From Iodidimonas sp. SYSU 1G8 (GTDB taxonomy: Bacteria; Pseudomonadota; Alphaproteobacteria; SMXS01), in NCBI RefSeq assembly GCF_039655775.1, contig NZ_JBBYXJ010000001.1, positions 682,001-746,000 on the forward strand: DNA of 64,000 nucleotides, read 5' to 3'. This document shows, piece after piece, positions 39,341 through 44,567 of this stretch; positions within the stretch are counted from its first letter, which is position 1, and the number at the start of each line of letters is the position of its first letter. The notes beneath the pieces are model-generated. The model saw nothing but the letters and a program-made list of their open reading frames with translations, was not told the origin of the DNA and did no database searches. The translations under genes and the position numbers were made by a program.

Positions 39341-40270
39341 CTAGCGGCGCGCCTGGGCGAGCTGCGCTTCCCGGTTGGCCCGGAGTTGAACGAAATCCTG
39401 TCCGGCATGATAGCTGGACCGGGTGAGCGGCGAGCTCGACACCATCAGGAAGCCCTTGGCGCGCGCCATCTTTCCGTAGGAGGTGAACTCGTCGGGCGTG
39501 ACGTAACGCGCCACCTCGGCGTGACGCGGAGTCGGGCGCAGATACTGCCCGATGGTCAGAAAATCCACCTCGGCGGCACGCATGTCGTCCATCACCTGAT
39601 AGACCTCGCGCTTGTCTTCGCCCAGGCCGGCCATGATTCCCGATTTGGTGAAGATGGAAGGATCGAGCCGCTTGACCGTGTCGAGCAGGCGCAGCGAGTT
39701 GTAGTAGCGCGCCCCCGGCCGGATCGTCGGGTAGAGCCGCGGCACCGTTTCCAGATTGTGATTGTAGACATCGGGCCGCGCCTCGACCACCGCTTCGATC
39801 GAACCCTTCTTGCGCAGGAAATCCGGCGTCAGCACCTCGATGGTGGTATTCGGCGCGTATTCGCGAATCTTGCGGATCACCTGGACGAACTGGCTAGCGC
39901 CGCCATCCGGCAGATCGTCCCGGTCGACCGAGGTGATGACCACGTGCTCGAGCCCGAGCTCGCCCACCGCCGTCGCGACATGCTCCGGCTCGTCCTTGTC
40001 GACCATGCGCGGCATGCCGGTCTTGATGTTGCAGAAGGCGCAGGCCCGGGTGCAGATATCGCCCAGGATCATAACGGTCGCGTGCTTCTGGGTCCAGCAC
40101 TCGCCAATATTCGGGCAGGCCGCCTCTTCGCATACCGTGTTCAGCTTGAGATCGCGCATCAGCTTGCGCGTCTTCATGTATTCCGGCGACCCCGGCGCCT
40201 TCACGCGCAGCCAGTCAGGCTTGCGGACGTGCTCGGGCGTCTCGCCCTTGATGATCTCGACGTTGCTCAT
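39341..40270 (-). CDS. lipA: Lipoyl synthase
   Basis: A 309-residue radical-SAM enzyme that inserts two sulfurs into octanoyl-lysine. The auxiliary cluster motif uses Cys47, Cys52 and Cys58 ([12 protein letters not shown]) and the SAM cluster uses Cys73, Cys77 and Cys80 (CTRACAFC). The substrate is the lipoyl domains of the pyruvate dehydrogenase encoded just upstream on the same strand. Length is normal. The C-terminal [10 protein letters not shown] includes the conserved RSSY motif. Confidence 0.97.
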
Positions 40271-40387: not shown

Positions 40388-40624
40388 TCAGTGATCGTGG
40401 TCGTGCTCGCTGCCGGGATCGAGCAGCCGGTGCAGGTGGACGACGAAATAGCGCGTCCGGGCGTCATCGACCGTCGCCTGGGCCTTGCCGCGCCATGCTT
40501 TCACGGCCTCCGCGTTGCTGCCATAGACACCGACGATATCGATCTCGTCGAGGTCCTCGAATTCCGCGCCTTTCGGGTCCTTGACCCGGCCACCAAGCAC
40601 AAGGTGGAGAAGTTGTTTCGTCAT
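40388..40624 (-). CDS. DUF4170 family protein (78 aa)
   Basis: A small soluble protein starting LLHLVLGGRVKDP and containing FEDLDEIDIVGVYGSNAEAVKAWRGKAQATVDDA in parts, with TRYFVVHLHRLL and a His/Asp-rich tail (EHDHDH). It matches what I know of DUF4170, an alphaproteobacterial family of unknown function. The tail could bind metal, which is inference. The ATG at 40624 has a GAGACAG site. It sits where many relatives carry lpdA, between pdhC and lipA. Confidence 0.78.
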   Translation of the reverse strand: MTKQLLHLVLGGRVKDPKGAEFEDLDEIDIVGVYGSNAEAVKAWRGKAQATVDDARTRYFVVHLHRLLDPGSEHDHDH

Positions 40625-40740: not shown

Positions 40741-42129
40741 CTAGATCAGCAACCGGACCGGATGCTCCAGCAAGGTCTTGAAGACCTGAAGAAACTGGGC
40801 GCCGACCGCGCCATCCATCGCCCGGTGATCACACGCCATGGTCACACTCATCAGCGTGGCGATGGCGAGCTGATCGTTCCGCACCACCGGTCGCTTCTCG
40901 CCCGCGCCGATGGCGAGGATGGAGGCCTGCGGCGGATTGATCACGGCGAGAAACTCCTTCACGCCGAACATGCCCAGATTGGAGATGGCGATGGTGCCGC
41001 CCTGATATTCCTCGGGCGCCAGCTTGCCGTCCTTGGCCCTGCCGGCCAGTTCCTTCATCTCCGACGAGATCGCCGCGACGCCCTTCAGGTCGGCTCCCTT
41101 GACGATCGGCGTGATCAGGCCGCCTTCGATGGCGACCGCCACCGCCACGTCAGAACGCGAGAACCGGCGCAGCTTGTCGCCGGCGAACTGGACGTTGGCG
41201 TCGGGAAACTGCTTGAGCGCCAGACCGGCCGCGCGAATGATGAAATCGTTGACCGAGACCTTCGGTCCCTCGCCCGCGTCATTCAGGTCCTTGCGGATAT
41301 CCAGCAGCTTGTCGATCTCCACCTCGATGGTGAGATAGAAATGCGGCACGGTCTGCTTGGCCTCGGTCATCCGCCGCGCGATGGTCTTGCGCATGGTGGA
41401 CAGCCGCACTTCCTCGTAGGGCGTATCACCCTGCACATCGGCCGGGCGCGGCTGCTGGACAATGGATGACGCCGCAGCAGGCGTGAATGCTTCCACATCC
41501 GCTTTCACGATACGGCCGTCGGGACCGGACCCCGGGATATCGGACAGCGTAAACCCCTTGTCTGCGGCGATCCGGCGCGCGACCGGGCTGGCGAACACAC
41601 GGCCGCCCTTCGCCTTGGACGGTTCCGGGGACGGCGTTTTCGCCTTGGGCTTCCCGCCCTCACCCGAGAGCGCGACCACGTCGCCCTTGGTGATACGCCC
41701 ATGCGGGCCGGTGCCCTTCACGCCGGACAGATCGATCCCCTGTTCCTCGGCCAGGCGCCGGGCGGCGGGATTGACCAACAGGTCGCCATGTTCGGCGGAC
41801 TCGGCCGTTGCTTCAGCGTCCACTTTTGGTCCGGCGTCCTTCTTCGCCGGGCTCCTGGCCGGCGCCTTCAGGTCGGCCGCGTCCTCGCCTTCCTCCAACA
41901 GCATGGCGATGACGGAATTGACCTTCACGCCCTCGGTGCCCTCGGCCACCATCAGCTTGCCGACGACACCGTCATCGACCGCTTCCACTTCCATGGTCGC
42001 CTTGTCGGTTTCGATCTCGGCGATGATGTCGCCGGATTTCACGCGGTCGCCTTCCTTCACCCGCCATTTGGACAGGTTGCCTTCTTCCATGGTGGGAGAA
42101 AGCGCCGGCATCGTGATGGATATGGCCAT
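40741..42129 (-). CDS. pdhC: Pyruvate dehydrogenase E2 (dihydrolipoamide acetyltransferase), two apparent PSBDs
   Basis: A 462-residue E2 core subunit that transfers acetyl groups to CoA. The lipoyl domain (1-80) carries Lys43 in IETDKATME. Two peripheral subunit-binding domain signatures follow: one near 118-151 (NPAARRLAEEQGIDL, GTGPHGRITKGDV) and one near 179-213 (SPVARRIAADKGFTL, GSGPDGRIVKADV), separated by a Lys/Pro-rich linker. The catalytic domain ends with ACDHRAMDG, containing the active-site His and Asp. A single PSBD is usual for E2, so the second copy is notable. It follows pdhB after 3 bases. Confidence 0.95.
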   Translation of the reverse strand: MAISITMPALSPTMEEGNLSKWRVKEGDRVKSGDIIAEIETDKATMEVEAVDDGVVGKLMVAEGTEGVKVNSVIAMLLEEGEDAADLKAPARSPAKKDAGPKVDAEATAESAEHGDLLVNPAARRLAEEQGIDLSGVKGTGPHGRITKGDVVALSGEGGKPKAKTPSPEPSKAKGGRVFASPVARRIAADKGFTLSDIPGSGPDGRIVKADVEAFTPAAASSIVQQPRPADVQGDTPYEEVRLSTMRKTIARRMTEAKQTVPHFYLTIEVEIDKLLDIRKDLNDAGEGPKVSVNDFIIRAAGLALKQFPDANVQFAGDKLRRFSRSDVAVAVAIEGGLITPIVKGADLKGVAAISSEMKELAGRAKDGKLAPEEYQGGTIAISNLGMFGVKEFLAVINPPQASILAIGAGEKRPVVRNDQLAIATLMSVTMACDHRAMDGAVGAQFLQVFKTLLEHPVRLLI

Positions 42130-42132
42130 GGA

Positions 42133-43539
42133 TCAGGCCTTGTAGCAGACGGTCTTGGCCGCCTTGACCACGTCGTCCGGCTGGACGATGGCCAGCTTTT
42201 CCAGATTCGCCGCATAGGGCATCGGTACGTCCGCGCCGCCAAGGCGCAGCACCGGCGCATCCAGCCAGTCGAATGCCTGCTCCATCAGCAGCGCCGAGAT
42301 TTCGGCGGTGACGCCATAGGCGGTCCAGCCCTGCTCGATCACCACCGCCCGATTGGTCTTCTTGACCGACTCGATGATGGTTTCGGTGTCCAGCGGTCGG
42401 ATCGTGCGCAGATCGATCACTTCGGCGTCGATGCCCTGCTCGGCCAGCTTGTCCGCCGCGTCCAGCGTCGCCAGCATGGTGTAGGAGAAGCTGATCAGCG
42501 TGACGTCCTTGCCCTCGCGGACCACTTTGGCCTTGCCGATCGGCACGGTGTAGTCGTCCAGCTTGGGGACCTCGAACTTGCGGCCGTACAGCAGCTCCTG
42601 TTCGAGGAACACGACCGGATTGGGGTCGCGGATCGCCGATTTCAGCAAGCCCTTGGCATCCGCCGCCGAATAGGGCGCGATCACGCGCAGGCCCGGAATA
42701 TGGCCGTACCAGCTTGCGTAGCACTGGGAATGCTGCGCCGCGACGCGCGAGGCGAAACCGTTGGGGCCGCGAAACACGATCGGCACGCTGAGTTCGCCGC
42801 CCGACATGTAGCGGGTCTTGGCGGCCGAGTTGACGATATGATCGATCGCCTGCATGGCGAAGTTGAACGTCATGAACTCGACGATCGGGCGCAGCCCCGC
42901 GAAAGCCGCGCCGGTGCCAAGCCCGGCGAAGCCGTTCTCGGTAATCGGCGTATCGATGACGCGCTTGTCGCCGAATTCCTCCAGCAGCCCCTGCGACACC
43001 TTGTAGGCGCCCTGATACTGGGCGACTTCCTCGCCCATCAGGAAGACGTCCGGATTGGCGCGCATCTCTTCCGCCATGGCATCGCGCAGCGCCTCGCGGA
43101 CGGTCATTTCAACCATTTCCGTTCCGGCGGGAATTTCGACGTCCCTGGGAGCGGCCGCGGCGGGCGCACGCGGCGCCGGCTCTGCTTTGACCTCGGGCGC
43201 CTCGTCCCCGTCCTCGCCCTTGTCCGGCGTGTCTTTCGCCGCCTGCTTGTCCGCCTTGGCGGCCTTCGGCGCGGGGTCGGCCTCGTCGGCGCTTTCCCCT
43301 TCCTCGACCAGGCGCGCGATCACCTCGTTGACCTTCACGCCTTCGGTGCCCTCGGGTACCAGAATCTTGGCGACCTTGCCGTCATTGATCGATTCCAGCT
43401 CCATGGTCGCCTTGTCTGTCTCGATCTCGGCGAGAATGTCGCCCGAGGAAACCGTATCCCCTTCCTTGACCAGCCATTTGGCCAGGGTGCCCTCCTCCAT
43501 GGTGGGCGACAGTGCCGGCATCAGGATATCGATGGACAT
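42133..43539 (-). CDS. pdhB: Pyruvate dehydrogenase E1 beta subunit with N-terminal lipoyl domain
   Basis: A 468-residue protein. Residues 1-80 are a lipoyl domain ([20 protein letters not shown] and IETDKATME) joined by an Ala/Pro/acidic linker (to about 138) to the transketolase-like E1 beta domain, which has [20 protein letters not shown] and [12 protein letters not shown]. With E1 alpha it decarboxylates pyruvate using thiamine diphosphate. The lipoyl fusion is known in alphaproteobacteria. The ATG at 43539 shares one base with the pdhA stop. Confidence 0.95.
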
Positions 43540-44567
43540 CAGGCGTATACCTCGGTGAAGAGCTCGGCCGCATCGGGTTCGGGACTGTCCTGCGCGAAGT
43601 TGGCGGCGTCCGAGACGATGGACTTGATCTCCTTGTCGATGGCCTTCAGGTCGTCCTCGGTGGCGGCCTTGGCCTTGATGAGCATATCGCGCAGGTGATC
43701 GATGGGATCGTGATCGGTGCGCATCTTCTGCACCTCGTCCCGGGTGCGGTATTTGGCGGGATCCGACATGGAATGGCCGCGATAGCGGTATGTCTTCATT
43801 TCCAGGATGATCGGTCCGTTTCCGTCTCGGACCCAATCAATCGCGTCCTGCGCGGCGGCTCTGACCTCCAGCACGTCCATGCCGTCGACTTCATAGCCCG
43901 GGATGCGGAAGCTGGTGCCGCGCTTGTAGAAATGGGTTTCCGAGGACGACCGCTCGACCGAGGTCCCCATGGCGTACTGGTTGTTCTCGATGACGAAGAC
44001 CACCGGGAGCTGCCACAGCTCGGCCATGTTGAAGGTTTCGTAGACCTGGCCCTGGTTGGCCGCGCCATCACCGAAGAAGGTCAGCGCAACGCCGTTGTCG
44101 CCCCGATACTTGTGGGCAAAACCCAGCCCGGCGCCGAGCGGCACCTGTGCCCCGACGATCCCGTGTCCACCGAAGAAGTTCCTTTTCCGGTCGAACATGT
44201 GCATGGAGCCGCCCTTGCCCTTCGACACCCCGCCCGCGCGTCCGGTCAGCTCGGCCATGACCTTATTGGGATCGGTGCCCACAGCCAGGATATGACCGTG
44301 ATCGCGATAGGCCGTGATCAGGGAGTCTGTTTCCTGCATGGCATCCTGAACGCCAACTATGACCGCTTCCTGTCCAATGTAGAGGTGGCAGAATCCGCCG
44401 ATCAGGCCCATGCCATACATCTGACCGGCGCGTTCCTCGAATCGCCTGATCAGAAGCATGTTCTTGTAATATTTGACCAATTCTTCGGGCGAGGCCTTGT
44501 AGGGCGGCGGCGCCGACGTCCGAGCAGGCCTCTGTTTGTCCTGCGGTGCCGATTTCTTGCTCGCCAT
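43539..44567 (-). CDS. pdhA: Pyruvate dehydrogenase E1 alpha subunit
   Basis: A 342-residue thiamine diphosphate-dependent subunit. It has [21 protein letters not shown], and the ThDP motif from [12 protein letters not shown] to the NNQYAMGTS segment, followed by the [11 protein letters not shown] loop that is regulated by phosphorylation in mitochondria. The ATG at 44567 (MASKKSAPQ) has a GGGGAG site and is preferred over the upstream frame. The 204 bases upstream, before the ftsB-like gene, probably hold the operon promoter. Confidence 0.95.

Follow-up and report, generated by a model that had tools for sequence, protein, structure and literature searches.

Tandem peripheral subunit-binding domains in the pyruvate dehydrogenase E2 of an alphaproteobacterial family: a candidate dock for E3 on the E2 chain

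We describe a dihydrolipoamide acetyltransferase (E2, PdhC) of the pyruvate dehydrogenase (PDH) complex, through which sugar carbon passes into respiration, that carries two peripheral subunit-binding domains (PSBDs) in tandem. The gene lies in a stretch of 64,000 nucleotides from Iodidimonas sp. SYSU 1G8, referred to below as the window. Within the host family the tandem is conserved; it is unusual but not unique to that family. We read PdhC, tentatively and with slightly less than even confidence, as an in-cis counterpart of the eukaryotic E3-binding protein (E3BP), in which the second domain (PSBD2) would mainly dock E1 and the first (PSBD1) would mainly dock a shared E3 (Lpd) of the OGDH type.

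PdhC reaches 557.8 bits with the pyruvate dehydrogenase E2 model TIGR01349 (cut-off 445) and adjoins genes for PDH E1-alpha and E1-beta, which score above the cut-offs of TIGR03182 and NF008854, respectively. Its domain order according to Pfam is one lipoyl domain, two E3_binding domains (PSBDs) and one catalytic domain (Table 1). The general remark in the first-pass annotation that an E2 usually has several lipoyl domains is a poor description of this complex, where there is one on PdhC and another on E1-beta.

Table 1. Features of pdhC and its neighbourhood, in window coordinates
Feature	Position	Strand	Evidence
pdhC, dihydrolipoamide acetyltransferase (E2) of pyruvate dehydrogenase complex, 462 aa	40741..42129	-	ORF translation, TIGR01349
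Lipoyl domain, residues 5-77	41899..42117	-	Pfam PF00364 (Biotin_lipoyl)
PSBD1, most likely the extra copy, residues 120-151, apparently shifted towards SucB type	41677..41772	-	PF02817 66.1 bits
Linker between PSBDs, ~25 residues, predicted disordered	41599..41676	-	Structure model
PSBD2, canonical alphaproteobacterial PDH type, residues 178-213	41491..41598	-	PF02817 62.7 bits; single-PSBD matches listed align mainly here
Acetyltransferase (core-forming) domain, residues 237-461	40747..41421	-	PF00198 (2-oxoacid_dh)
pdhB, E1-beta with own N-terminal lipoyl domain	42133..43539	-	NF008854 811 bits
pdhA, E1-alpha	43539..44567	-	TIGR03182 520 bits
Small DUF4170 gene in the pdhC-lipA gap, the place of lpd in relatives	40388..40624	-	PF13773 72.7 bits
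lipA (lipoyl synthase), next conserved neighbour	39341..40270	-	TIGR00510 373.2 bits, cut-off 310.25

The two PSBDs in PdhC are real. The first-pass annotation had recognised segments with the PSBD pattern at residues 118-151 and 179-213, and the Pfam matches agree with both ranges. Scored singly, not just one but both of them exceed the PF02817 gathering cut-off of 23.7 (66.1 bits for PSBD1, 62.7 bits for PSBD2), and the whole protein scores 117 bits with E3_binding over two stretches that each pass alone. An AlphaFold model of residues 120-216 likewise consists of two helix-loop-helix units with the PSBD fold and a disordered linker; the pLDDT of both units is 75-92 (10-residue means). The 36 best-ranked Foldseek matches are all PSBD or E2-component structures, some of them PSBDs solved with E1 or E3, with E-values that are weak because the domains are small (best 1.4e-3, none below 0.001). 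The two domains are identical at 18 of 37 residues, and the motif residues that are invariant in the alignment are retained in both. Scores far above the cut-off, together with the predicted fold, exclude a chance match to the motif.

How widespread the arrangement is was examined at the level of the family and of the class. The family comprises 10 genomes of 3 genera, and a search at the level of the order added no further genome. Nine of the 10 have two PSBDs in PdhC; in the tenth (G008), a fragmented assembly, only its other E2, with two PSBDs, was seen. Outside the family, a sequence search gave 80 PdhC-like loci from Alphaproteobacteria, of which 6 carry two PSBDs and the other 74 a single one. 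The question of the first-pass annotation whether such tandems are routine in relatives thus has two answers, yes within the family (9/10) and no within the class (6/80 loci). A profile of the whole tandem compared with 385 genomes of the class, counting matches of at least 73 bits that span both profile halves, detects a tandem-PSBD E2 in at least 29 genomes, a lower bound with the best candidates per genome scored; 5 of these belong to the family and 24 to 14 other families, and two or more PSBDs were confirmed in all 24. Of the matches listed below this score (72 to about 62 bits), most extend over only the second half of the profile. There is no gap between the two score groups: a single PSBD is present in G244 (71.7 bits), and G234 lies just below the criterion with 69.5 bits over columns 2-95. 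Fifteen of the 24 outside genomes (L160-L174, 7 families) score 249-305 bits on the catalytic domain of the window's PdhC and were taken as PdhC from this score; L179 and L183 (244-249 bits) branch elsewhere in the E2 tree.

On a tree of E2 catalytic domains the label of single or multiple PSBDs changes at least 12 times, where the tree comes from a short search with 51 of 126 inner branches below 80 support, includes some E2s other than PdhC and several rows on long branches, and leaves out 20 of the 28 SucB rows. Duplicate rows for one gene were dropped before the counts, as were L026 and L119, fragments whose catalytic domains are short. A single ancient duplication common to all tandem PdhCs is contradicted by the 12 changes. 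The tandem PSBD is a recurrent minority trait in Alphaproteobacteria, in which the number of PSBDs has varied repeatedly. No description of an E2 with two PSBDs was found in titles and abstract openings of the open-licence PMC papers listed by literature searches. E2s with a double E3_binding domain are included in the architecture lists of Pfam and InterPro.

Several other E2 genes came to light in the course of this survey. The genome of the window has a second E2 with three PSBDs (L024 4875-6467; 136.8 bits over three stretches), the first of which has a shortened loop. It adjoins E1-alpha and E1-beta genes of a PDH/acetoin-like complex, which score below the curated PDH equivalog cut-offs, with the E1-beta subfamily model just reached. 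Elsewhere in the family the same type of E2 has three PSBDs in six genomes (G002-G007) and two in G008 and G009. The genome of the window also encodes a divergent E2 in a frame of 595 aa with one lipoyl domain and one PSBD (L026 7181-8965), for which no NCBIfam model (E up to 1e-20) reaches its own cut-off. A distant type of E2 in family f51 (L176, L177) has three PSBDs per chain. In G009 the PdhC frame starts just before PSBD1 and is without a lipoyl domain (L115 3078-4037), which may be due to a frameshift, an assembly fault or real shortening. One PdhC near the alphaproteobacterial ones sits on a long branch and on a contig labelled Chitinophagaceae (L101), possibly a case of misbinning or transfer.

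PSBD1 is most likely the added copy, because single-PSBD proteins among the listed matches align mainly with the PSBD2 part of the tandem profile (most begin at column 22-51) and because PSBD2 keeps the F-A-S-P-x-A-R context of the usual single domain. Purifying selection acts on both copies in the genus: over 7 genomes, pooled dN/dS is 0.16 for PSBD1 and 0.23 for PSBD2, and mean identity is 0.845 and 0.798, respectively.

The type of each domain was assessed with two HMM profiles, one built from 74 single PdhC PSBDs and the other from 28 SucB PSBDs of the class, by subtracting the SucB-profile score from the PdhC-profile score. The two training sets give differences of +24.7 to +44.1 (the 74 PSBDs of single-PSBD PdhCs) and of -58.1 to -5.7 (the 28 SucB PSBDs). 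In the nine family rows PSBD2 gives +18.6 to +30.2, and PSBD1 of the same rows gives -11.0 to +0.4, with -3.8 for the window's copy. PSBD1 of 20 other tandem PdhC rows, which lie outside the training sets, gives +7.8 to +30.2; this set leaves out nine tandem E2 rows that were not taken as PdhC (L175-L183), among which the pair from family f48 (L175, L180) adjoins a PDH-like E1-beta.

The shift can be followed at individual residues. Four diagnostic positions in the family's PSBD1 are SucB-type and a fifth, the GxGP proline, is PDH-type and kept in 9/9. The residue after P is S or A in 9/9 family PSBD1s and L in 73/74 single PdhCs; x of I-x-K is T in 8/9 (V or I in 73/74), x of K-x-D is G in 8/9 (A or R in 63/74), and the residue after D-V is L in 7/9 (E in 59/74), the exceptions being V in the window's copy and A in L108. 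At this last position 23 of the 28 SucB PSBDs have a hydrophobic residue. The T in I-x-K is present also in 10 of the 20 PSBD1s of the other tandem PdhCs.

Judged by these profiles and positions, PSBD1 is shifted away from the PDH type and appears partly SucB-like. It may be better called "not PDH-type" than SucB-type, because PSBDs of other types of E2 score alike. Near-zero or negative differences are found also in the family's three-PSBD E2 (third PSBD -22.2 to -12.7 over 7 genomes; second PSBD -10.4 to +7.5), in the first PSBD of L178 (-3.7) and in the third PSBD of L176 and L177 (-7.2). A BLOSUM comparison gave no proof that PSBD1 comes from SucB, the domain being about equally close to both consensuses: the genus consensus of PSBD1 scores 118 against the SucB consensus and 117 against the PdhC consensus, and the window's PSBD1 scores 107 and 115, respectively.

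The family also differs from its relatives in the E3 gene. None of the nine family loci has lpd downstream of pdhC (0/9), and 8 of the 9 have lipA and no lpd. Among the outside loci with a single PSBD, lpd is found beside pdhC in 50 and is absent in 19, and 6 loci are too short. Of the 80 loci outside the family, 19 extend as far as lipA, and each of these reads pdhC-lpd-lipA on one strand, including two with tandem PSBDs (L034, L099). No lpd remnant was detected in the window's pdhC-lipA gap by tblastn, whose best match has E 0.21. In all 10 family genomes a single Lpd passes the TIGR01350 cut-off; it is OGDH-type by HMM in 10/10 and adjoins sucB in the nine genomes examined, the G008 copy being cut at a contig end. 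A tree of Lpd sequences, from which L132, L137 and L138 were left out, separates 56 rows that lie within a few kb of pdhC-like genes from the sucB-adjacent rows (17 outside and 9 family; SH-aLRT 100), and the 9 family rows fall within the sucB-adjacent clade (SH-aLRT 100). With a profile of the PDH-type Lpd, the five family genomes that were sampled give E-values no better than 3e-135; many other genomes give 1e-200 to 1e-256. Weaker Lpd-like proteins of the family genomes score about 270-365 bits, below the cut-off and far below both Lpd types, and one of them may serve as E3.

The position of lpd is not in itself the key trait, as a PDH-type Lpd is encoded elsewhere in all 19 single-PSBD genomes whose pdhC has no lpd beside it (19/19). 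Nor do tandem PSBDs always go with loss of the PDH-type Lpd: all 15 genomes of other families with a PdhC-type tandem match it (15/15, best E 5e-233 or lower), and tandem PSBDs therefore have other causes too. Some genomes outside the family, including complete ones such as G106, G166 and G168, give no clear match to the PDH-type Lpd profile, and four of this group were inspected as independent cases (G053, G078, G231, G062). G053 has a normal pdhC with an adjoining PDH-type lpd that is truncated where the contig ends, and at the places fetched from G078 and G231 the E2s are of other types, so these three were discarded. In G062 (93% complete, one contig) the Lpd is OGDH-type only, according to HMM and profile tests, and PdhC has a single PDH-type PSBD. 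This PdhC-like E2 (L255 4413-5276) consists of PSBD and catalytic domain without a lipoyl domain and adjoins a lipoyl-bearing E1-beta, the sole lipoyl domain seen for the G062 complex thus being on E1. As G062 manages with one PSBD, a complex of this kind can do without the extra domain. The altered type of PSBD1 and the loss of the PDH-type E3 coincide as one evolutionary event only.

The number of PSBDs per E2 is usually given as one (PMC6270654, PMC10156792), and that one domain is described for bacteria as common to E1 and E3 and not selective between them, with the ratio of the two set by affinities and supply (PMC10156792). In the reading that we prefer, PSBD2 would be the inherited PDH-type domain, a dock for E1 that probably still accepts E3 as well, and PSBD1 would be the added, SucB-shifted domain, which mainly docks the sole remaining clear Lpd. 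That OGDH-type Lpd would be common to the PDH and OGDH complexes, and E3 recruitment would be split from E1 recruitment inside one chain. It presupposes that both domains bind, each with a partner of its own, and that the E3 loss would either have prompted the acquisition of PSBD1 or have come after it; the added dock and the disappearance of the PDH-specific E3 from the lineage may be connected. The complete sequence of events, in which the family lost its PDH-specific E3 and then gained an OGDH-like dock dedicated to E3 while E1 kept its own site, is in our judgement possible but doubtful. The first-pass annotation had offered two guesses, more E3 bound per core or separate binding of E1 and E3. 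The latter appears to fit somewhat better than the former, in view of an ordinary PDH-type PSBD2, a PSBD1 displaced towards the OGDH E2 and a sole clear Lpd that is OGDH-type. A straightforward increase in capacity, with two dual-specific PSBDs that load more E1 and E3 on each core, is nevertheless a serious rival because the 15 outside tandem genomes keep a PDH-type Lpd, and we regard it as a real, if still doubtful, possibility. Tandems have been gained or lost repeatedly (at least 12 changes on the E2 tree), PSBD1 of the other tandem lineages is still PDH-like, and the invariant motif residues are present in both copies, all of which is consistent with equal roles. Under equal roles, however, one would not expect the family's two copies to differ consistently at the diagnostic positions.

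We considered two further explanations for PSBD1. PSBD1 could be a neutral duplicate that folds and adds no function, as might be suspected from the recurrent changes scattered over the E2 tree and from the loop shortening in the first of the three PSBDs of the paralogous E2, which suggests that extra copies can decay. However, PSBD1 is retained in 9 of the 10 family genomes and in the genus is constrained at least as strongly as PSBD2 by both dN/dS and identity, so we consider neutrality improbable. It is also conceivable that PSBD1 recruits another partner, for example in tying the PDH core to the OGDH complex in a hybrid that shares one Lpd. One clear Lpd must serve both complexes in this family, and Corynebacterium is known to form a hybrid of the PDH and OGDH complexes (PMC7568260). 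Yet one E1 tetramer is reported to be bound per PSBD (PMC2663715) and each E3 dimer by only one PSBD (PMC10156792); a shared Lpd would therefore not bridge two cores, and this possibility seems to us very remote. Separate docks for E1 and E3 on one chain are our preferred, tentative reading. The choice of a PSBD between E1 and E3 is unsettled, and the PdhC of this family provides a within-protein comparison with a clear prediction: if the reading is true, the two domains of one PdhC are a natural pair for locating the determinants of that choice.

Several known systems can be compared with the family's PdhC. It resembles the ordinary alphaproteobacterial PdhC (TIGR01349/NF008854) in the pdhA-pdhB-pdhC core, the lipoyl domain on E1-beta, the one lipoyl domain of E2, the same catalytic domain and PSBD2 as the usual PSBD. 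It differs in having an extra PSBD ahead of the usual one and in being without lpd between pdhC and lipA. Like the other alphaproteobacterial tandem PdhCs (L028, L032-L034, L054, L099, L124 and L160-L174, a list that includes some genes twice), it has two PSBDs in the same place, but those keep a PDH-like PSBD1 (20 rows) and a PDH-type Lpd (15 genomes of the class). The family's PSBD1 resembles the PSBD of SucB at the four diagnostic positions and obtains similar scores with the SucB and PdhC models, as PSBDs of other E2 types also do; unlike the SucB domain, PSBD1 keeps the PDH-type GxGP proline and is located in PdhC.

A parallel in function would be eukaryotic E3BP (PDHX), which separates E1 docking from E3 docking in eukaryotes (PMC10156792), as we suppose by hypothesis for this PdhC. 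The E3-specific PSBD of E3BP is reported to have a universal leucine two residues after the conserved Asp, in a motif that sits off the canonical binding face (PMC10156792), and a leucine occupies the same position in 7/9 family PSBD1s. A 2023 study describes motifs that tell E2 from E3BP and was unable to connect these motifs with the binding face (PMC10156792). E3BP itself is a separate, catalytically inactive paralogous chain, whereas PSBD1 shares its chain with a catalytic-type domain (269 bits) and is in this sense no member of E3BP; here both putative docks are on one E2.
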